Positions 9,528 to 24,292 of a stretch of 24,983 nucleotides of DNA are shown here, in pieces. Origin of the DNA: a virus; IMG/VR virus record IMGVR_UViG_3300046514_000119, positions 1-24,983 of that record; one strand, given 5' to 3'. The notes under the pieces are model-generated. The model saw only the letters and a program-made list of their open reading frames with translations, did no database searches and was not told the DNA's origin. The stretch's first letter is position 1, and every line of letters begins with the position of its first letter. Made by a program: the position numbers and the translations under genes.

Positions 9528-9758
9528 ATGGCGAGAAAGAAGACGAAGGCATCGGACACTTCGGACACCGACGAGAGCGTCGAAGTGTCCGGCATCCCCG
9601 TACGCGCAACGCGGATGGGCATCTACGCCAACATGCGTCGGAAGGCGGGCGACGAATTCACGATCACGAGCGAAGAATGGCTCGGCTCGTGGATGGAGCG
9701 TCTCGACGGCGGGCCGAATAAGGGCGAGTCGGCCGAAGACACCGAGGGCGCTGAGTAA
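9528..9758 (+). CDS. Small head-region protein, 76 aa
   Basis: The start is ATG 9528 with AGAGGA at 9518-9523. The frame is open further back (ATG 9414), but that extension is encoded by the hairpin region and looks non-coding. After an acidic, Lys/Thr-rich N-terminus, residues 24-58 read P-V-R-A-T-R-M-G-I-Y-A-N-M-R-R-K-A-G-D-E-F and then W-L-G-S-W-M-E-R-L. This V-R-A-x-x-x-G-x-Y-x-N-x-R-R-x-x-G-D-x-F pattern is common in very short phage proteins placed between capsid and head-completion genes. The function is unknown; a minor head or connector component is inferred. The stop overlaps the next ATG as TAATG. Confidence 0.8.
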   Translation: MARKKTKASDTSDTDESVEVSGIPVRATRMGIYANMRRKAGDEFTITSEEWLGSWMERLDGGPNKGESAEDTEGAE

Positions 9759-10408
9759 TGGCGAAGTACACGGCGGCGCAGCTCGGCATCTGTAACGCTG
9801 CGCTGCGCCACCTCGCCAACAAGGCGATCAAGAGCATCACCGAAGCGTCGGAGCCGGCCGCCGCGTGTCTCGGATTCTACGACCAGACACGCGACGAAGT
9901 GCTGCGCGAGTTCCGCTGGCCGTTCGCCACCCGCTTCGCCGCCCTGACGCTCGTCGGTGGCACCGCCACGCTCCCCGTGACGCTCGAATGGCGGTACAGC
10001 TATCGGTTGCCCGATGACTGCTTGGCGCCGCGACGGATTCTCTCGGGCACGCGGCAGGAGACCGAAGACACGCGGATCCCGTTCGACACCGCGAGCGATG
10101 CGACGGGTGGACTGCTCTACGCCGATGTCCCGCCGGTCGTCGCGACCGACACGACGCCGCAACTCCCGCAACTCGAATACACGGTGGTCGTCGCGGAAGC
10201 GCGGTTCCCGGCCGATTTCGCGCAGGCGTTCGCTTTGAAGCTCGCGTTCTACATCGCGCCGGCCGTCACGGGAGGTGATCCGAACAAGTTGGGGCAGCGC
10301 GCGGGCCAGTTGTACGAGATGCTCCTCGCGCGATCGGAATTTTCGGCGATGACGGAACGCCAGCGCGATCCGGCGCCCGAGTCGGAATTCATTCGCTCGC
10401 GCTATTAG
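9758..10408 (+). CDS. Tail tubular / gatekeeper protein (T7 gp11-like)
   Basis: The 216-residue protein begins L-G-I-C-N-A-A-L-R-H-L-A, then A-A-C-L-G-F-Y-D-Q-T-R-D-E-V-L-R-E-F-R-W-P-F-A (residues 34-57). This is the diagnostic start of the gp11-type tail tubular (adaptor) proteins that bind beneath the portal and hold the tail nozzle. Y-R-L-P-D-D-C-L (84-91) and A-L-K-L-A-F-Y-I-A-P-A-V-T-G-G (157-171) are further family features. The length is close to that of T7 gp11. It is directly followed by the nozzle gene, as expected for these interacting partners. The start overlaps the previous stop. Confidence 0.93.
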   Translation: MAKYTAAQLGICNAALRHLANKAIKSITEASEPAAACLGFYDQTRDEVLREFRWPFATRFAALTLVGGTATLPVTLEWRYSYRLPDDCLAPRRILSGTRQETEDTRIPFDTASDATGGLLYADVPPVVATDTTPQLPQLEYTVVVAEARFPADFAQAFALKLAFYIAPAVTGGDPNKLGQRAGQLYEMLLARSEFSAMTERQRDPAPESEFIRSRY

Positions 10409-10419
10409 CGGAGCCGAAA

Positions 10420-13400
10420 ATTAATAAAGCGCAACGCTCGTTCGCCAAAGGGGAGATCGCCCCGGCGCTCCACGCGCGCACCGATGCCGCGGCGTACGAT
10501 GTCGGGCTCACGAAGTGCCGGAACTTCATGATCATGCGCCAGGGCGGCGCGACCAAACGCCCCGGCACCGAGTACATCGGCCAGATCCGCGACATCACGA
10601 AGCGTGGTCGGCTGATCCCGTTCGTGTTCAACGTGCGCGACGCGCTCGAGCTGGAATTCGGGCACCTCACGCTCCGGTTCCTGCAGGACGGCGCCTTCAT
10701 CGCGGACCCGATCGACCCGACGGAGATCTATGAGATCCTGTCGCCGTACACGGAAGCCGAATTGCCGGCGTTGCAGTACGTGCAATCGGGCGACGTCGTC
10801 ACGATCGTCCACCCGTCGCATCCGCCGTACGAACTCAAGCGCCTGGCGAACAACGACTGGACGCTGACCGCCATCACCTTTGGCGCCACGATCGCGGCAC
10901 CGACCAGCGTCGTCGCTGCTGGTGGGAACTGGAAACTGCCGCGCGAAGTGAAGTATGTCGTGACGGCCATCGACGCCTTCGGGGAAGAGTCGCTCGCGAG
11001 CAACGTCGCGACGAACCCCAATCCGCCCGGCGAGATTCCGGTCGTCGTCAACGGCTCGTGCCCCGGCGCGGTGACGTTCAACGTCTACCGCTCCGAGCAA
11101 GGCGCTGGGGTCTTCGGTTTCGTGGGCTCCGGCGTGCCGACGAGCGATCTCGTGTCGTTCGCCGACTACGGCACGCTCCCGGACTACACGATCCAACCGC
11201 CGATCGAGAAGTTGCCGTTCGCGGCGGCTGGGGATTACCCCAGTGTGGTCGCGTACTACCAGCAACGCCTCGTGTTCGCGAACACGAACAACCATCCCGA
11301 CACGGTCTGGTGCTCGCGCACCGGCCACTTCCACAACTTCAACGTGTCGGTGGTCGTGCAGGACGACGACGCGATCACGTTCCGGCTCGTCTCGGACGAA
11401 GTCGACGCGATCCGCCATATCCTGACGGTCGGTCGGATGATCGTCGGCACCGAAGGCGTCGCGTGGATCATCGAAGGCGGCGCCGATGGCGTGCTGACTC
11501 CGGTCTCGGTCAACGCCCGTGCCGCGTCGTATGACGGCATGTCGGCCTTGCGCCCCGTCAAGATCGGCGAGCGGATGCTGTTCGTCCAAGCGTTGGGTGG
11601 CGTCGTGCGGGAACTTCGGGCCAATGTGCAATTCGGCTCGTACTCGTTCGCGGGTGGCGACCTCACGATCTACTCGAGCCATCTGGTTGACGGCTACACG
11701 ATCGTCGACTGGGCCTTCCAGCAGGAACCCGCGCATACGTTGTGGGCGGTGCGGTCAGATGGCGTGTTGCTCTCGCTGACGTACATCCCCGACCAAGAAA
11801 TGCTCGCCTGGGCGCGGCACGATACAAAGGGCTTTATCGAGAACGTGTCGGTCGTGCCCGAAGGGAAAAGCCATTGGGTGTATTGGATCGTCCGCCGGCT
11901 GATCAATGGCGCGTATCGGCGCTACATCGAACGCCAGACGGTCTCGGCGATCGTGCCGGTGTTCTCAACCGTTGAGGAGATCGCGGGCACGCCGGGCGGG
12001 ATTGTCACGCCGCCGCCGCCACCGATCCCGTTGCCCGTCGTCGGGACGCGCTACGTCGTAACGGTGAGCAGCACGACGCCGACGGCGGGATCAACCGTCG
12101 AACTCGCCGCGCAGCTCGTGGACGCGGACGGCAATCCCGTCGCCCTTGAAGGCATCACGGGGACGTGGACCAAGACCGGCACGGGCGGCATCCTCTCCGC
12201 GAATGGGACGACGAACGATGCCGGCCTCGCCACCGGGTCGCTCGCGGTGTCGTACGACGACGCGGTGAACCACGCGGTGACGTTCACTGACGGCACGGGC
12301 CGGTTCGGCATCTCGTCCACGATCAACATTCAGCCGCTCTCCGCGAGCGACCCGACGCTGCCGACGACGTACGACACAACGTATCCGGCCACGCCGGGCA
12401 CCGTGCATACCGTCAATGGTGGGGACGACTTGCAAGCGGTCCTCAACGCGGCACAGCCGGGCGACGAAATCGTCCTCCAGGCGGGCGCGACGTTCACGGG
12501 GAATTACGAGCTGCCCGTCCATCCGCTGCTCGGGCTCGGCGCGGACTTCATCGTGATCCGGTCGGGCGGCGCGATCACTCCCGCCGTGGACACGCGCGCC
12601 GTGCCGGCCGATGCGTCGGGCTTCGCCAAGACCATTACGCCGAACGTCGCGCCGGCCTTCCTCGTGCGCGACGGCGCGTCCAAATGGTGGCTGTCGCGCG
12701 TCGAGATTTCGGCCACGCCGCAAGGCGGCGGTGTCGATTACAACTACGGGCTCGTGCGGATCGGCGGCGCGGAGACATCGGTCGCGCAACAGCCGTCCGA
12801 TATCGTCCTCGATCGCTGCTACGTCCACGGCAACACGGTGCAGGTCCAGCACGGCGTGTTACTCAACGGCGTGCGGAACGCGGTGATCGACTCGACGGTC
12901 AGTGAGATCCATTGGGTGGGCACCGAGACGCACGCGGTCGGCGGCTGGGCGGGCCAAGGCCCGTTCAAGATCGAGAACAACTACCTCGAAGCGGCCAGCA
13001 TCAACGTGCTCTTCGGCGGCGCGGACCCGGTCGTCACGAACCTCATCCCGTCCGATATCGAGATTCGCCGGAACCATTTCTACAAGCCGACCGCGTATCG
13101 CGGCCTCGGCTACGCCGTCAAGAATCTGCTGGAGTTCAAGAACGCGAAGCGCGTCCTCATCGAGGGCAACGTGTTCGAGAATTCCTGGCCCGACGGACAG
13201 ATCGGATGGGGCATCATCATCGACTCGATGCAGGGCGGGTCTTTCAGCGCTCCGTGGTCGCAAGTCAGCGACGTGACGTGCCAGTACAACAAGATGAAGA
13301 ACGTGAGCGCCGGATTCCAAATCTCGGGCGGCCAGACGCCGGCCGGGTCTGGGGTTCCCACCGCCGCGACGCGCATCGTGCTCCGGCATATGGTGTTCGA

Positions 13401-13884
13401 GAACATCGGCGGCGACGGCGTGTCGATCGGCGTGCAGCTCATCTCGAATCCCGGCCTCGAACTCAGCCACGCGCACGTCTCACACATCACCGTCCTCCGC
13501 AACACGGAAGCGATTGGGGCACCCGTGGAAGTCGTCGGCGAAGGCGCGAGCGATATCGTGCTCCGCGACAGCGTCTTCGTGACCGGCACGCCCTACGGCG
13601 GAATCTTCAGGGACGGCGGACTCACCGGGGCTCCAGCGCTCGACGCCTTTGCGCCCGGCACCGCGTGGGATGCGTTCGGGAACCTGTTCGTGCACGACGC
13701 GGTGAGCAACGAACCGGACGGCAACGCGAGCCCGGCCACGATCGCCGCCGTGGGCTTTGTCGACTACGCGGGCGGCAACTATCGGCTGGCCGTCAGCAGC
13801 GCGTACCACAACGCGGCGACGGATGGCACCGACCCCGGCGCCGACATCGACGCGGTTGAGACGGCGATCGCGGGCGTCGTATAA
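10420..13884 (+). CDS. Tail nozzle (gp12-like) N-terminal part fused to Ig-like and beta-helix domains; ATT start
   Basis: In this frame the conserved nozzle N-terminus (N-K-A-Q-R-S-F-A-K-G-E-I-A-P-A-L-H-A-R-T-D) lies upstream of the first ATG (10528). It begins exactly at ATT 10420, six bases after GGAG (10410-10413), and no ATG, GTG or TTG fits. The 1154-residue product has the nozzle body to about residue 505 (R-Q-G-G-A-T-x-R-P-G-T-E-Y near 40, Q-Q-R-L-V-F-A near 280, ending Y-I-E-R at 502). A Pro linker follows (531-535), then an Ig-like domain (about 542-640) and a pectate-lyase-like right-handed beta-helix (about 662-1110). The helix carries G-G-D-D-L-Q-A-V-L-N-A-A-Q-P-G-D, S-D-I-V-L-D-R-C-Y-V-H-G and S-D-I-E-I-R-R-N-H-F. 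The usual nozzle C-terminus is absent. The distal part probably binds or cleaves a host surface polysaccharide. Confidence 0.9.
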   Translation: MNKAQRSFAKGEIAPALHARTDAAAYDVGLTKCRNFMIMRQGGATKRPGTEYIGQIRDITKRGRLIPFVFNVRDALELEFGHLTLRFLQDGAFIADPIDPTEIYEILSPYTEAELPALQYVQSGDVVTIVHPSHPPYELKRLANNDWTLTAITFGATIAAPTSVVAAGGNWKLPREVKYVVTAIDAFGEESLASNVATNPNPPGEIPVVVNGSCPGAVTFNVYRSEQGAGVFGFVGSGVPTSDLVSFADYGTLPDYTIQPPIEKLPFAAAGDYPSVVAYYQQRLVFANTNNHPDTVWCSRTGHFHNFNVSVVVQDDDAITFRLVSDEVDAIRHILTVGRMIVGTEGVAWIIEGGADGVLTPVSVNARAASYDGMSALRPVKIGERMLFVQALGGVVRELRANVQFGSYSFAGGDLTIYSSHLVDGYTIVDWAFQQEPAHTLWAVRSDGVLLSLTYIPDQEMLAWARHDTKGFIENVSVVPEGKSHWVYWIVRRLINGAYRRYIERQTVSAIVPVFSTVEEIAGTPGGIVTPPPPPIPLPVVGTRYVVTVSSTTPTAGSTVELAAQLVDADGNPVALEGITGTWTKTGTGGILSANGTTNDAGLATGSLAVSYDDAVNHAVTFTDGTGRFGISSTINIQPLSASDPTLPTTYDTTYPATPGTVHTVNGGDDLQAVLNAAQPGDEIVLQAGATFTGNYELPVHPLLGLGADFIVIRSGGAITPAVDTRAVPADASGFAKTITPNVAPAFLVRDGASKWWLSRVEISATPQGGGVDYNYGLVRIGGAETSVAQQPSDIVLDRCYVHGNTVQVQHGVLLNGVRNAVIDSTVSEIHWVGTETHAVGGWAGQGPFKIENNYLEAASINVLFGGADPVVTNLIPSDIEIRRNHFYKPTAYRGLGYAVKNLLEFKNAKRVLIEGNVFENSWPDGQIGWGIIIDSMQGGSFSAPWSQVSDVTCQYNKMKNVSAGFQISGGQTPAGSGVPTAATRIVLRHMVFENIGGDGVSIGVQLISNPGLELSHAHVSHITVLRNTEAIGAPVEVVGEGASDIVLRDSVFVTGTPYGGIFRDGGLTGAPALDAFAPGTAWDAFGNLFVHDAVSNEPDGNASPATIAAVGFVDYAGGNYRLAVSSAYHNAATDGTDPGADIDAVETAIAGVV
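12009..12023 (+). repeat. 15-bp direct repeat, left copy
   Basis: GCCGCCGCCGCCACC is identical to the copy at 15093-15107. It encodes the Pro-5 linker at the end of the nozzle body and lies in the same codon phase as the other copy. Low complexity means chance similarity is possible. Confidence 0.55.
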
Positions 13885-13914
13885 CACCCCTCCCATGAGC
13901 ACAGTGAGCACACG

Positions 13915-14913
13915 ATGACACTCCTCCGACTCGATGGATTCGAAGGCTACGGCGGCGCGCTGGGCCTCGCGCAAGGCTACTCTGGCGCCTCGGCCGGCCT
14001 GAGCGTCGGCAACGGGCGCGGGGGCGGGGCCGCGCTCTTTCTCCAGGGCACGACGTTCACGTTCATCACGCCCGACGGGGCGACGAACATCATTCAAGGG
14101 TTCGCGCGGAAATCGCTCCTCGGCGGGAACGCGATCGTCCAGATCAAGAGCGCCGTACAGGCCACGGGCTACGCGGATCTCGGCATCGATGAAGTCGGGC
14201 GGATCTTCTCCCACAAGATCGATCAGACCGACTGGTTCCGCGTCGACCCGGGAATGCGCCTCGGCGGCGTGTGGCGCTACTACGAACTCGACTTTAAGCT
14301 TCACGCCTCGGCGGGGCACATCATCCTCAGGATTGACGAACAGGAAATCGTCAACCTCACGGGCCTCAATACCGCGCAGTCCGCCGGCTCCGAAATCAAG
14401 AAGCTGATCTACAACGGCTCGGGCGAGTACTTCGACGACTACTACGTCTGCGACGATCAAGACACGTCGGACGGGTGCACGGGCTTTCTCGGCGACCGGC
14501 GGATGTTCAACATCTACCCCAATGGGGCGGTCACCGCCGCGTGGACGCCCAAAACCGTGGGCGCGAACTACCTCCAAGTCAAAGAGACCGCGAACGACGA
14601 CGACGGCTCGTATGTCTCGACGACGGTCGTTGATACCGAAGACAAGCACGATTATGAGAACACCGGACTCCCGGGCGCGCAGGAAGTGCTCGTCGCGCTC
14701 ATGACCTCGGCCCGGCGGGATGCGGACTCGGGGCCGCGCCAGTTGACGAGCTTCTTTGATTGCGGCGGCCATCGCCTCGAGGGCGCGCTGCACCAACTGT
14801 CCGAGACGTACTACATGGAACAGTTGCGGATGACGAAGCATCCGTTCACGGCCGCGAACCTGACGGCCGCCGACATCGACGCCGCGCGTGCCGGCTACCG
14901 GCTGACGGCGTAA
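13915..14913 (+). CDS. Lectin-like (jelly-roll) tail protein
   Basis: The 332-residue protein starts L-R-L-D-G-F-E-G-Y. It has a beta-sandwich-like N-terminal half with W-R-Y-Y-E-L-D-F-K-L-H (residues 119-129) and I-I-L-R-I-D-E-Q-E-I-V-N-L-T-G, resembling concanavalin A-like domains. It continues with Y-F-D-D-Y-Y-V-C-D-D, G-F-L-G-D-R-R-M-F-N-I-Y-P-N-G and a D-D-D-G-S-Y-V-S-T-T stretch. This D-D-x-Y-x-C-D ... F-L-G-D-x-R pattern recurs in phage tail proteins I know only as putative minor tail or receptor-binding proteins. It sits between the two nozzle parts, so a surface-binding role at the tail tip is a reasonable inference. The ribosome site is weak. Confidence 0.8.
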   Translation: MTLLRLDGFEGYGGALGLAQGYSGASAGLSVGNGRGGGAALFLQGTTFTFITPDGATNIIQGFARKSLLGGNAIVQIKSAVQATGYADLGIDEVGRIFSHKIDQTDWFRVDPGMRLGGVWRYYELDFKLHASAGHIILRIDEQEIVNLTGLNTAQSAGSEIKKLIYNGSGEYFDDYYVCDDQDTSDGCTGFLGDRRMFNIYPNGAVTAAWTPKTVGANYLQVKETANDDDGSYVSTTVVDTEDKHDYENTGLPGAQEVLVALMTSARRDADSGPRQLTSFFDCGGHRLEGALHQLSETYYMEQLRMTKHPFTAANLTAADIDAARAGYRLTA

Positions 14914-14922
14914 GGACACCCA

Positions 14923-15972
14923 GTGGCCGACGTCGCGCGTGTTAGTCAGCAATTCGGGATCGTTTCGACCGAGCCGGACCCTGGGGAAGGGTTCGTCTCT
15001 CAGCAGTTCGTCAATGTCACAACCGCGCCCGATCCCGCGACGGCGATCGTTACTCAGCAGTACATTATCGTCGCGATCGCGAACAACTTTGTGCCGCCGC
15101 CGCCACCCGTGGCGATCTCCCCGGCGGCCGTGGGTGCTCGTCGTGGCGCGTTCTACATGGACTCGACGCTCGAGTACGACGGGCGGAATGTCGGCGCCGT
15201 CGACGGCTTATTCCCCGGCGTGGTGCTCAACCTCACGGGCGGCACGACGTGGCAGCCCGGCGAAACGCTCACCGTCACCGCGAGCCTCGGCATCTTCACT
15301 GCCGACGACGTCGGGAACGTCCTCGTCCTCCACGCGGCGGATGACACGAAGGTGCGGTTCGCCATCACGGGCTTCGTGTCGGCGACGGTCGTCACGGGGA
15401 TCGTCGACGTGGCGGTGCCGGCCGATCTCCAGGACGCGACGGTCGCCACCTGGGACCGCGCCGTCGATCAAGTCGCGGGCGTCGATCACCTCGAGGGCGA
15501 ATACCTCGCGATCATGGGCGACGATCACGTCGTCGGCTCGCCGTACAATCCCGCCATCGCGCTCCGGCAAGTCGTCTCAGGCGTGGTCGATCTCGGGGAC
15601 AACTACACCCACATCTTCGTCGGCCTGCCGTACGTGTCCGATTTGGAAACGCTCGACATCGATACCCCGTCAGGGCCGAGCGTGAAGCAACAACAGGTCG
15701 ATGTCACGACCGTCGGGCTCATGCTGCTGCAATCGCGCTCGACGTTCGTGGGCGGGCGGCCGCCGTCCGATGATAGCGTCGACCTGTTGGAAGACTTGCT
15801 CGAGATGCCGCTGCCGACGGACGCGGACTACGAAACGCTCGCGACGGGCTATCGCGACATCGTGATTCCGAGCGCGTGGGACAAACGCGGGCACGTCTTC
15901 GTTCGCTCGGTCGATCCGACGCCGGTGACGGTGCTCGCTGCCATTCCGAACGGTCATTTCCCCCAGACCTGA
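14923..15972 (+). CDS. Split-off C-terminal domain of the tail nozzle
   Basis: The GTG start has AAGGA at 14912-14916, six bases upstream and overlapping the previous stop. The 349-residue product opens with three 18-residue repeats (V-S-Q-Q-F at 7 and 25, V-T-Q-Q-Y at 43), then a Pro-5 linker (58-62). From residue 75 it matches the usual C-terminus of gp12-like nozzles: G-A-F-Y-M-D-S-T-L-E-Y-D-G, an inserted beta domain, V-D-H-L-E-G (187-192), I-F-V-G-L-P-Y-V-S-D-L-E-T-L (about 228-241) and V-F-V-R-S-V-D-P-T-P-V-T-V-L near the end. These motifs are missing from the first nozzle gene, so the two products probably assemble together into one nozzle. The split is sequence-based; the assembly is inference. 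Confidence 0.85.
   Translation: MADVARVSQQFGIVSTEPDPGEGFVSQQFVNVTTAPDPATAIVTQQYIIVAIANNFVPPPPPVAISPAAVGARRGAFYMDSTLEYDGRNVGAVDGLFPGVVLNLTGGTTWQPGETLTVTASLGIFTADDVGNVLVLHAADDTKVRFAITGFVSATVVTGIVDVAVPADLQDATVATWDRAVDQVAGVDHLEGEYLAIMGDDHVVGSPYNPAIALRQVVSGVVDLGDNYTHIFVGLPYVSDLETLDIDTPSGPSVKQQQVDVTTVGLMLLQSRSTFVGGRPPSDDSVDLLEDLLEMPLPTDADYETLATGYRDIVIPSAWDKRGHVFVRSVDPTPVTVLAAIPNGHFPQT
14941..15075 (+). repeat. Three tandem 54-bp coding repeats (VSQQ/VTQQ units)
   Basis: Units begin at 14941, 14995 and 15049 and encode V-S-Q-Q-F, V-S-Q-Q-F and V-T-Q-Q-Y at an 18-residue period, with P-D-P closing the first two. The DNA copies are diverged, so the protein pattern is the one conserved. Similar V-T-Q repeats occur at the ends of other phage tail proteins. 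Confidence 0.7.
15093..15107 (+). repeat. 15-bp direct repeat, right copy
   Basis: Second copy of GCCGCCGCCGCCACC (other copy 12009-12023), encoding the Pro-5 linker before the split-off nozzle C-terminus. Joining the two copies would fuse the nozzle halves in frame. Confidence 0.55.
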
Positions 15973-15981
15973 GACGCTGAC

Positions 15982-16530
15982 ATGGGCGCTACGATGGGCA
16001 TCGCACTGAGCGCATATCAAGGCGTCTCAGGGTTTCAGGGCGCGCAGCGGCAAGCGTCCGCGGCGTCGGCACAGGGCCAGTATCAGAAAACGATCGCGAA
16101 CGAAAATAGCCGGCTCGCGACGGTGAACGCGCAGGACGCGACGCAACGGGGCCAACTCGAGGAACAACGCGCGCGATTGGGCACGCGGCAACAGATCGGC
16201 TCGACGCGGGCAGGACTGGCGGCGCAGGGCGTTGACATCGGGTCCGGGTCCGCGGCGGACGTGCAAGCGAGCGAGGCGGGATTGGGCGAACTTGACGCAC
16301 TCACGATCCGCAATAACGCGGCGCGCGAGGCGTACGGGTTCAACGTCGAAGCGCAGCAGGCGACGCGGGAAGGGCGGCTCGCGCAGTTCGCCGGGGACCA
16401 AGCCGCGGCGGGCTATCGCGCGCAAGGCGTGAGCACGCTCTTGACGGGCCTCGGCAACACCGCCGCTCGGGCGTACTCGTACCAGCACGACCGGAAGGAT
16501 CTCCGCACGAAGCCCAACCGAGCGCCGTAG
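15982..16530 (+). CDS. Internal virion protein, T7 gp14-like
   Basis: The 182-residue protein shows the gp14-type core and ejection pattern. A Gly/Ala-rich, mildly hydrophobic start is followed by a long Ala/Gln helix, then A-N-E-N-S-R-L-A-T-V-N-A-Q-D-A-T-Q-R-G-Q, then S-T-R-A-G-L-A-A-Q-G-V-D-I-G-S-G-S-A (74-91) and L-D-A-L-T-I-R-N-N-A-A-R-E-A-Y-G. In T7, gp14 is ejected first and forms a channel in the outer membrane. The length is close to that of T7 gp14. The ATG at 15982 follows the nozzle stop by nine bases; a second ATG four codons on cannot be excluded. It heads a run of four ejection genes. Confidence 0.88.
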   Translation: MGATMGIALSAYQGVSGFQGAQRQASAASAQGQYQKTIANENSRLATVNAQDATQRGQLEEQRARLGTRQQIGSTRAGLAAQGVDIGSGSAADVQASEAGLGELDALTIRNNAAREAYGFNVEAQQATREGRLAQFAGDQAAAGYRAQGVSTLLTGLGNTAARAYSYQHDRKDLRTKPNRAP

Positions 16531-22570: not shown

Positions 22571-24292
22571 ATGTCACAATTCCAGATGTACGAATTTGTC
22601 GCGGCGGATGTCACAACGCCGCCGAACGGCGCGGTCATGTTGTTTATCGACGCCGACTCGGGCTATCCCGCGTTCAAGGATTCGACCGGCGCGGTGTTCA
22701 TCCTCACGAGCGCGGCCCTGACCGCTCTTGCCGCCGTCAGCGGCGCCGCCGATACCGTCGCGTACTTCACGGGCGCCAGCACGGCCTCGACGACGGCCCT
22801 CACGACGTACGGCCGGACACTCATCGGGCAAGTCAACGCCGCCGCCGCGCGGTCAGCGCTGGGGCTCGCGATCGGGACCGACGTACAGGCATGGGACGCC
22901 GAGCTGGCGGCGATCGCGGCGCTCGTCTCGGCCGCCAACAAGATCATCCTGTTCACGGGCTCGGGGACGGCCTCGCTGCTCGACTACTCGACGAGTAGTG
23001 CGCTGGGGACGAGCGATACGACGCTCGTGAGCCAGCACGCCATCAAAGACGCGATCAGCGCGGCGGTCGCTGGGCTCTCGTGGAAGCAAGCGGTACGCGC
23101 CGCGACGACGGGTGCCGGCACGCTCGCGACGTCGTTCGAGAACGGCGACACGATCGACGGCGTGACGCTCGCGACGGGCGACCGGATTCTCATCAAGAAT
23201 CAGTCAGCGGGCGCGGAGAACGGTATTTACGTCGTCGCCGCGAGTGGCGCGCCGAGCAGGGCCACCGACGCCGACTCAGGTGCGGAGATGGTGAACGCCT
23301 CCGTGTACGTCTCAGAAGGCACGGTGAACGCCGACACGCAGTGGACGTGCACCGCGAACGCCACGATCACCCTCGGCTCGACGTCGCTTGTCTTTAGTCA
23401 ACTCTCAACTGGTGGAGCGCCAAGCGGCGCGGCCGGCGGGGATCTCTCCGGCACGTATCCGAATCCGACCGTCGCGACCGTCGATGGTGCAGCGGTGCAA
23501 TCCGGAACGGTGCCGGCGGCGCGCCTCGGCTCCGGCTCTCCTGGCAGCACAACGTTTCTGCGCGGAGACGGCGCATGGGCGTCTATCGTCGGCGGTGGCG
23601 CTGGTTCGACAACGCCGGGCTGGCTGGCGGATCATCCCGATAACGAACCGGCCTCACCGAACGTGGCCGATGACGAGTTCGGTGGCACGCTCTACGCCGC
23701 CGAAACGTCGCTTGATACGGGCGGCACGCGGTTCACGAGCGCGACCGCTTGGGCGTGGGTGAACCAAGGTACCGCGACGGCGGTCCTCGCGGGCGGCGTG
23801 CTGCGACTCAAGTCGCTCGCGCATAGCGGCAACGATATCAAGATGATCATGCAGACGATCCCCGCTGGGACGTGGCGCTATCGGGCGAAGGTGAGCCATA
23901 TCGCGTTCGGGGCGACCGCCTCGATGGCCGTGCAAATGGTGCTGCGCCAGTCGAGTTCGGGAAAGCTTACGGCGATCAATCTCTACTACTCGGGGAATTA
24001 CAACCTGAGCGTGAGCAACTATACCGATCCGACGACCTATAGCGCGGACGTCGTTTCACCGACCGCCGCCGCCAAACCGAGCGGCTGGTATTTGGAGATT
24101 GAAAACGACGGCACGAACTACATCTACCGCGCGAGCCCTGACGGTTTCGCGTACTTCACGCTCGGCACGCAGGTAAAGACCGCCTTTCTCACGACGACCG
24201 GCGCGGATCAAATCGGCATCGCGGCGGATTCCAATAACGGATCGTCCCGCGACCTCGTGGCGCAGTGCGAGTGGTTCCGGCGCGTCGCGTGA
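22571..24292 (+). CDS. Tail fibre protein
   Basis: This is a 573-residue modular fibre for host attachment. Residues 1-50 form a virion-attachment-like beta domain (F-I-D-A-D-S-G-Y-P-A-F-K-D). Residues 60-118 carry fibre repeats ending A-L-G-L-A-I-G-T-D-V-Q-A-W-D-A-E-L. Residues 170-278 form a well-known tail-fibre domain (W-K-Q-A-V-R-A-A-T-T, I-D-G-V-T-L-A-T-G-D-R-I-L-I-K-N-Q, A-E-N-G-I-Y-V-V). G-G-D-L-S-G-T-Y-P-N-P-T (289-300) and T-F-L-R-G-D-G-A-W-A-S (328-338) are further fibre hallmarks. The C-terminal 220 residues look like a beta sandwich and would be the receptor-binding head. The gene ends in a GTGA overlap with a mini-ORF. Confidence 0.92.
   Translation: MSQFQMYEFVAADVTTPPNGAVMLFIDADSGYPAFKDSTGAVFILTSAALTALAAVSGAADTVAYFTGASTASTTALTTYGRTLIGQVNAAAARSALGLAIGTDVQAWDAELAAIAALVSAANKIILFTGSGTASLLDYSTSSALGTSDTTLVSQHAIKDAISAAVAGLSWKQAVRAATTGAGTLATSFENGDTIDGVTLATGDRILIKNQSAGAENGIYVVAASGAPSRATDADSGAEMVNASVYVSEGTVNADTQWTCTANATITLGSTSLVFSQLSTGGAPSGAAGGDLSGTYPNPTVATVDGAAVQSGTVPAARLGSGSPGSTTFLRGDGAWASIVGGGAGSTTPGWLADHPDNEPASPNVADDEFGGTLYAAETSLDTGGTRFTSATAWAWVNQGTATAVLAGGVLRLKSLAHSGNDIKMIMQTIPAGTWRYRAKVSHIAFGATASMAVQMVLRQSSSGKLTAINLYYSGNYNLSVSNYTDPTTYSADVVSPTAAAKPSGWYLEIENDGTNYIYRASPDGFAYFTLGTQVKTAFLTTTGADQIGIAADSNNGSSRDLVAQCEWFRRVA

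Follow-up and report, generated by a model that had tools for sequence, protein, structure and literature searches.

A tail nozzle encoded by two genes around a lectin-like tail gene in an uncultured short-tailed phage

The window, that is, the whole stretch of DNA analyzed here, is an entire viral record of 24,983 bases (IMG/VR IMGVR_UViG_3300046514_000119) from an uncultured short-tailed virus of bacteria. As first described, three open frames lie on the + strand at 10420-15972, and all of them share one reading frame. Genes coding for the portal, the protease, the major head protein and the connector are located 5' of gene 1, and genes coding for a T7 gp14-like internal virion protein and an endolysin-like protein are located 3' of gene 3. 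The nozzle genes of the window sit between the connector and internal virion protein genes, the place expected for the nozzle family. In addition, the protein encoded at 22571-24292 (573 aa) shows several matches, of weak to moderate strength, to tail-fibre and virion-structural profiles and is a candidate separate fibre. The features of the locus are as follows.

9758..10408, +, connector (adaptor) gene, upstream neighbor of gene 1 (phrog_394 tail protein, E 2.2e-38; placed as the Carin1 connector gene)
10410..10413, +, candidate ribosome-binding site GGAG of gene 1, six bases 5' of the ATT (sequence)
10420..13884, +, gene 1, nozzle body with an adhesin-like extension, 1154 aa, probable ATT start (phrog_376; N-terminus conserved in relatives)
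10420..11937, +, nozzle body, residues 1-506, with platform strands (about residues 1-47) and a beta-propeller with tip (models compared with 8ck1_A and T7 gp12)
11938..12036, +, conserved proline-rich linker after the propeller (alignment of four clade members)
12085..12300, +, weak Ig-like module (Big_1, E 0.0038, below the Pfam cut-off)
12427..13881, +, beta-helix-like module (PF13229, E 9e-5, below the Pfam cut-off; alginate lyase 6kfn; model mostly low-confidence)
13915..14913, +, gene 2, lectin-like tail protein of the phrog_2448 family, 332 aa (profile match; homologs in tail gene clusters)
14923..15972, +, gene 3, nozzle C-terminal piece with an N-terminal repeat arm, 349 aa (phrog_376, phrog_15566; 8ck1_A 575-824)
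14935..15084, +, three RVSQ-type repeats of about 18 residues, candidate lectin-docking arm (sequence; repeat type beside lectin genes elsewhere)
15094..15108, +, polyproline linker of gene 3 (sequence)
15133..15969, +, fibre-dock and platform part of the nozzle (gene 3 model on 8ck1_A and T7 gp12)
15982..16530, +, gene for a gp14-like internal virion protein, downstream neighbor of gene 3 (PF24072, E 1e-6; phrog_418)

The original prediction held that gene 1 codes for a nozzle body that ends at YIER and has no C-terminus, and that gene 3 supplies the C-terminus. Both statements were borne out. In profile searches, positions 7-531 of phrog_376 (712 positions) matched residues 4-507 of gene 1 (E 1.7e-140), and positions 540-706 matched residues 75-343 of gene 3 (E 5.8e-23). 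The profiles phrog_15566 and phrog_30010 divide between the two genes at the same place; phrog_30010 also matches the protease gene of the window. YIER occupies residues 502-505 of gene 1, and Y502, E504 and R505 are invariant in an alignment of the four clade members. Similarly, profiles built from the clade matched the solved Carin1 nozzle (8ck1_A) at positions 12-563 for the body (E 2.8e-114) and 575-824 for the C-terminal piece (E 3.9e-37). The predicted models gave the same picture: residues 39-515 of gene 1 fit 8ck1_A 52-572 with Z 36.8 (2.2 A over 360 residues) and T7 gp12 41-583 with Z 22.8, and residues 71-349 of gene 3 fit 8ck1_A 567-829 with Z 14.5 and T7 gp12 585-790 with Z 6.6. 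The two halves align to consecutive parts of one nozzle both by sequence profile and by predicted structure, and gene 3 aligns to the nozzle family rather than to an unrelated one. The presence of a two-gene split nozzle in the window is confirmed, with the refinements given below. F1-ATPase N-terminal barrels (Z about 7-8), which also appeared in the PDB fold list for gene 3, were rejected as reflecting a common barrel shape and not kinship.

Each nozzle gene has a start of its own. Gene 3 begins with GTG behind AAGGA. In gene 1, in-frame ATG, GTG and TTG codons are absent before 10528; the first codon of the conserved nozzle N-terminus is an ATT at 10420, a position where the relatives use ATG or GTG. 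Judged from the sequence, the ATT, six bases after GGAG, is probably the start codon of gene 1, or else a sequence error.

Three more IMG/VR contigs (L002/L023, L003/L007, L008/L019) carry a body with extension, a middle gene and a C-terminal piece in the same order, and their middle gene, between the two nozzle halves, is also lectin-like. Their identity to the window is 62-64% for the body, 52-59% for the C-terminal piece and 21-23% for the middle gene. A fifth contig, L024, contains the body and the start of the linker, where the contig ends. In the body tree, the four split members and L024 form one clade (support 100/100) nested among single-chain nozzles. In the four full cases, phrog_376 matches exactly twice per record, at 3-536 and 539-707. 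Profile searches found no second or whole single-chain nozzle in any of the four split records, the incomplete window record included; because all four are fragments, this leaves some room for an additional nozzle elsewhere in these genomes. In the other nozzle loci fetched, the body end and the C-terminus were in one frame wherever both were detected. The body search of bacterial genomes retrieved only distant single-chain loci, in Labrys genomes, the search of bacterial genomes with the C-terminal piece gave no matches, and a scan with the pattern DDHVVGSP revealed no new split member. These data show the split of the nozzle into two genes, its position and its conservation.

The nozzle of the window descends from, and probably works like, the gp12/BPP-1-type nozzle, and we file it as a two-chain variant of that family because the usual one-chain feature is absent. 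Consecutive parts of gp36 of the Cobetia phage Carin1 (8ck1_A, 830 aa) align end to end with the body and the C-terminal piece, with identities over structurally aligned residues of 41% and 35%, respectively, and the Carin1 nozzle gene also directly follows the connector gene. However, the Carin1 nozzle is one chain, in which about 12 residues take the place of the two linkers, the adhesin-like modules and the entire gene found in the clade. T7 gp12 (6r21, 7ey7, 9jyz) has propeller, fibre dock and platform in the same order as the window (PMC6702177), but it is one chain on which fibres dock as separate trimers, and it has no fused adhesin-like part. The BPP-1 Bbp13 and epsilon15-like nozzles (phrog_376) share 38-39% body identity and the gene order of the window, whereas these nozzles are one chain; in BPP-1 a single whole nozzle gene comes after the connector gene and is directly followed by the internal virion protein gene. 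SU10 gp17, for which detectable sequence similarity to T7 was reported absent, is similar in that it contains multiple Ig-like domains and has a loop for docking short fibres adjacent to propeller blade 1; it is nevertheless one chain, and its Ig-like domains, between blades 2 and 3, form the nozzle tube and not a fibre-dock extension (PMC9509320).

The earlier statement that nozzle body and C-terminus are one chain holds as a rule, but not in the Xanthomonas phages CP2 and Olaya, in which the nozzle is encoded by two adjacent genes. Their nozzles are broken within the tip region, at a point between about residue 158 and residue 275 in the numbering of the window body, and they have no inserted gene or cassette and no repeat arm. 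Both are cultured phages (Olaya, L124 2986-6089; CP2, L125 2986-6089) whose nozzle genes, of 464 and 571 aa, are not annotated as a two-gene nozzle. The nozzle of Pseudomonas phage UFJF_PfDIW6 is annotated as two overlapping pieces. No description of a two-gene nozzle was found in the literature searched, most subscription papers, including any on the Carin1 structure, lying outside the search. Two-gene nozzles as such already exist; the new features here are that the break falls at the fibre dock and that an adhesin-like cassette and a repeat arm are grafted there.

The break maps to about 583-585 of T7 gp12, the junction of propeller and fibre dock, where related phages attach fibres. In T7 gp12 the propeller end and the platform are connected by the fibre dock, which lies on the outer surface, and the N-terminus of 45 residues contributes three strands to the platform (PMC6702177). 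In P-SCSP1u the fibres are held between the fibre docks of nozzle and adaptor (PMC10575957). In the gene 1 model, the pLDDT of the body is near 90, but residues 1-47 are mostly below 50 although their sequence is conserved. Since these residues are poorly folded alone and their T7 equivalent completes the platform barrel, the model and the analogy suggest that body and C-terminal piece probably join by strand complementation. The low confidence of residues 1-47 could instead reflect a shallow alignment.

A cassette of an Ig-like domain, a beta-helix and a separate lectin-like gene had been predicted between the halves. The separate gene was recovered as a member of phrog_2448, whereas the Ig-like and beta-helix assignments were only weak, below the Pfam cut-offs. 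The start of the beta-helix-like module resembles alginate lyase 6kfn over 55 residues (E 4.4e-4), and this module is a candidate receptor-binding or polysaccharide-acting part. The AlphaFold model of the Ig-like/beta-helix stretch is mostly low-confidence, with the putative beta-helix mostly under pLDDT 60. Single-protein searches with the beta-helix found no relatives in viral contigs or in named phages. NCBIfam gave no matches. In the three relatives, the proline-rich linker leads instead into a stretch of about 200 residues, which is FN3-like in L007 (fn3 E 3.5e-5, just under the cut-off).

Gene 2 matches phrog_2448 over nearly the full length of the profile (26-333 of 335 positions against residues 21-330, E 1.7e-20), and a single-protein search for it found no relatives in viral contigs. 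Members of this family lie in the tail gene clusters of unrelated phages, next to proteins annotated as lectin-like, and one member is itself annotated as a polysaccharide lyase. The term lectin-like for gene 2 is thus taken from the gene neighborhood and annotation of the family, rather than from a fold.

The N-terminus of gene 3 contains the repeats ARVSQQF, FVSQQF and IVTQQY, followed by the polyproline stretch. Two or three copies, diverged in sequence, occur in the gene 3 arms of the relatives, and the repeats are absent from every other nozzle locus examined. RVSQ-type repeats occurred near phrog_2448 genes in 6 of the 7 named-phage loci inspected, several of which are mutually related. 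A stricter repeat pattern, tried first, gave no matches. For a wider comparison on fresh loci, 65 viral test stretches were chosen by the lectin signature NNDFLGDV; the looser repeat pattern used was fixed before these loci were fetched. Repeat arrays were found in 14 of the 65 lectin loci, whereas 55 control stretches, comparable in total length, had none (Fisher p about 1e-4, a nominal value because some lectin loci may be related). All 14 arrays were in the ORF directly adjoining the lectin ORF, 12 of them downstream, and the boundary of genes 2 and 3 in the window has the same layout. Because the repeat type adjoins the same lectin family in unrelated phages, the gene 3 repeats are suggested to dock the lectin-like product of gene 2.

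From these data we infer a complex of the two chains, its strand complementation, an adhesin role for the extension and a docking role for the arm, as parts of an explanation that we consider likely as a whole. Genes 1 and 3 would each be translated on their own, and six body/C-terminal piece pairs would assemble and work like an ordinary nozzle below the connector. The N-terminal 45 or so residues of the body would give strands to the platform barrel, with the other strands coming from gene 3. The new chain ends, probably on the outer surface, would serve as mounts for host-recognition parts: the body C-terminus would lead through the proline-rich linker to Ig/FN3-like modules and, in the window, a beta-helix-like module, and the repeat arm of gene 3 would dock the gene 2 product. 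The lectin and repeat cassette would have been inserted into an ancestral nozzle gene, after which the arm presumably stayed attached to the C-terminal piece. The stronger proposal, of an obligate two-chain nozzle whose platform barrel is completed in trans by N-terminal strands of the body and whose mobile adhesin cassette at the fibre dock makes the nozzle carry host-recognition parts, rather than act as a socket for separate fibres, is put forward tentatively. The weak family matches of the adhesin modules count against the two-chain nozzle/adhesin explanation, as does the separate fibre-like protein at 22571-24292.

It is very improbable that the halves are rejoined as one chain by stop-codon readthrough, frameshifting, an intron or an intein. 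The three genes of the window do happen to share one reading frame, but the genes of L002 and L008 are in different frames, and readthrough was rejected for this reason. Furthermore, two termination/start boundaries and a whole gene lie between the halves, the genes have their own starts, and intron matches in Rfam and intein matches in Pfam were absent. Equally little credit can be given to a decayed or misassembled nozzle gene that does not function as two chains. The records are metagenomic fragments, and gene 1 of the window has no standard start codon; against this, the break, the linker and the middle gene are common to four independent contigs, and both halves are conserved, with dN well below dS (a ratio that serves only as a guide because dS is near saturation).

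A true two-chain nozzle in which the cassette has a structural role, or arose as a by-product of insertion, rather than serving host recognition seems unlikely, though less so than rejoining or decay. It agrees with the lack of a function annotation for phrog_2448 in PHROGs and with the separate fibre-like protein. However, the cassette has changed far more rapidly than the nozzle halves and has exchanged modules, in the manner of adhesins, and this pattern between two conserved halves is in keeping with a role in host recognition. The resemblance of the beta-helix start to an alginate lyase, and the gene 2 relatives located beside lectin-like proteins in tail clusters or annotated as a polysaccharide lyase, also argue against a purely structural part.

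Short-tailed phages gate their DNA with the nozzle, and the way in which receptor binding opens this gate is still under study. In the two-chain nozzle described here, candidate recognition parts extend directly from the end of the gating propeller, at the site of fibre docking in other phages, and through this fusion receptor and gate would be in direct mechanical connection. For studies of nozzle assembly, the break also offers a natural place to divide the protein. The pairing of lectin and repeats points beyond nozzles: phrog_2448 proteins with RVTQxxVEVL repeats may be a docking module in general use among several types of phage tail. L181, L179, Tetraselmis virus S20 and Brevundimonas phage Bambus resemble the window in that a lectin-like gene adjoins an RVTQxxVEVL repeat array, but their repeats are on other proteins or in small ORFs of their own, whereas those of the window head the nozzle C-terminal piece.

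Several minor observations were made at related loci. Two to four tandem RVTQxxVEVL repeats of 17-18 residues, alone or fused to other proteins, adjoin phrog_2448 ORFs in many unrelated phages. Loci with lectin and repeats include L137, L138, L145, L147, L151, L154, L160, L165, L168, L179, L180, L181, L183 and L198, and further ones are L127-L130, L132 and L133. At L060 3986-6455, L049 1000-3058 and L015 1242-3926, overlapping frames or a stop break the nozzle gene close to its N-terminal third; these cases could be real two-gene nozzles or sequencing errors. In Sodalis phage phiSG1 (L126 3410-4963), a 517-aa protein matches only the last 110 or so body residues and part of the C-terminal piece; phrog_30010, the profile that also matches the protease gene of the window, looks like the product of a deletion that joined protease and nozzle in a decayed prophage.
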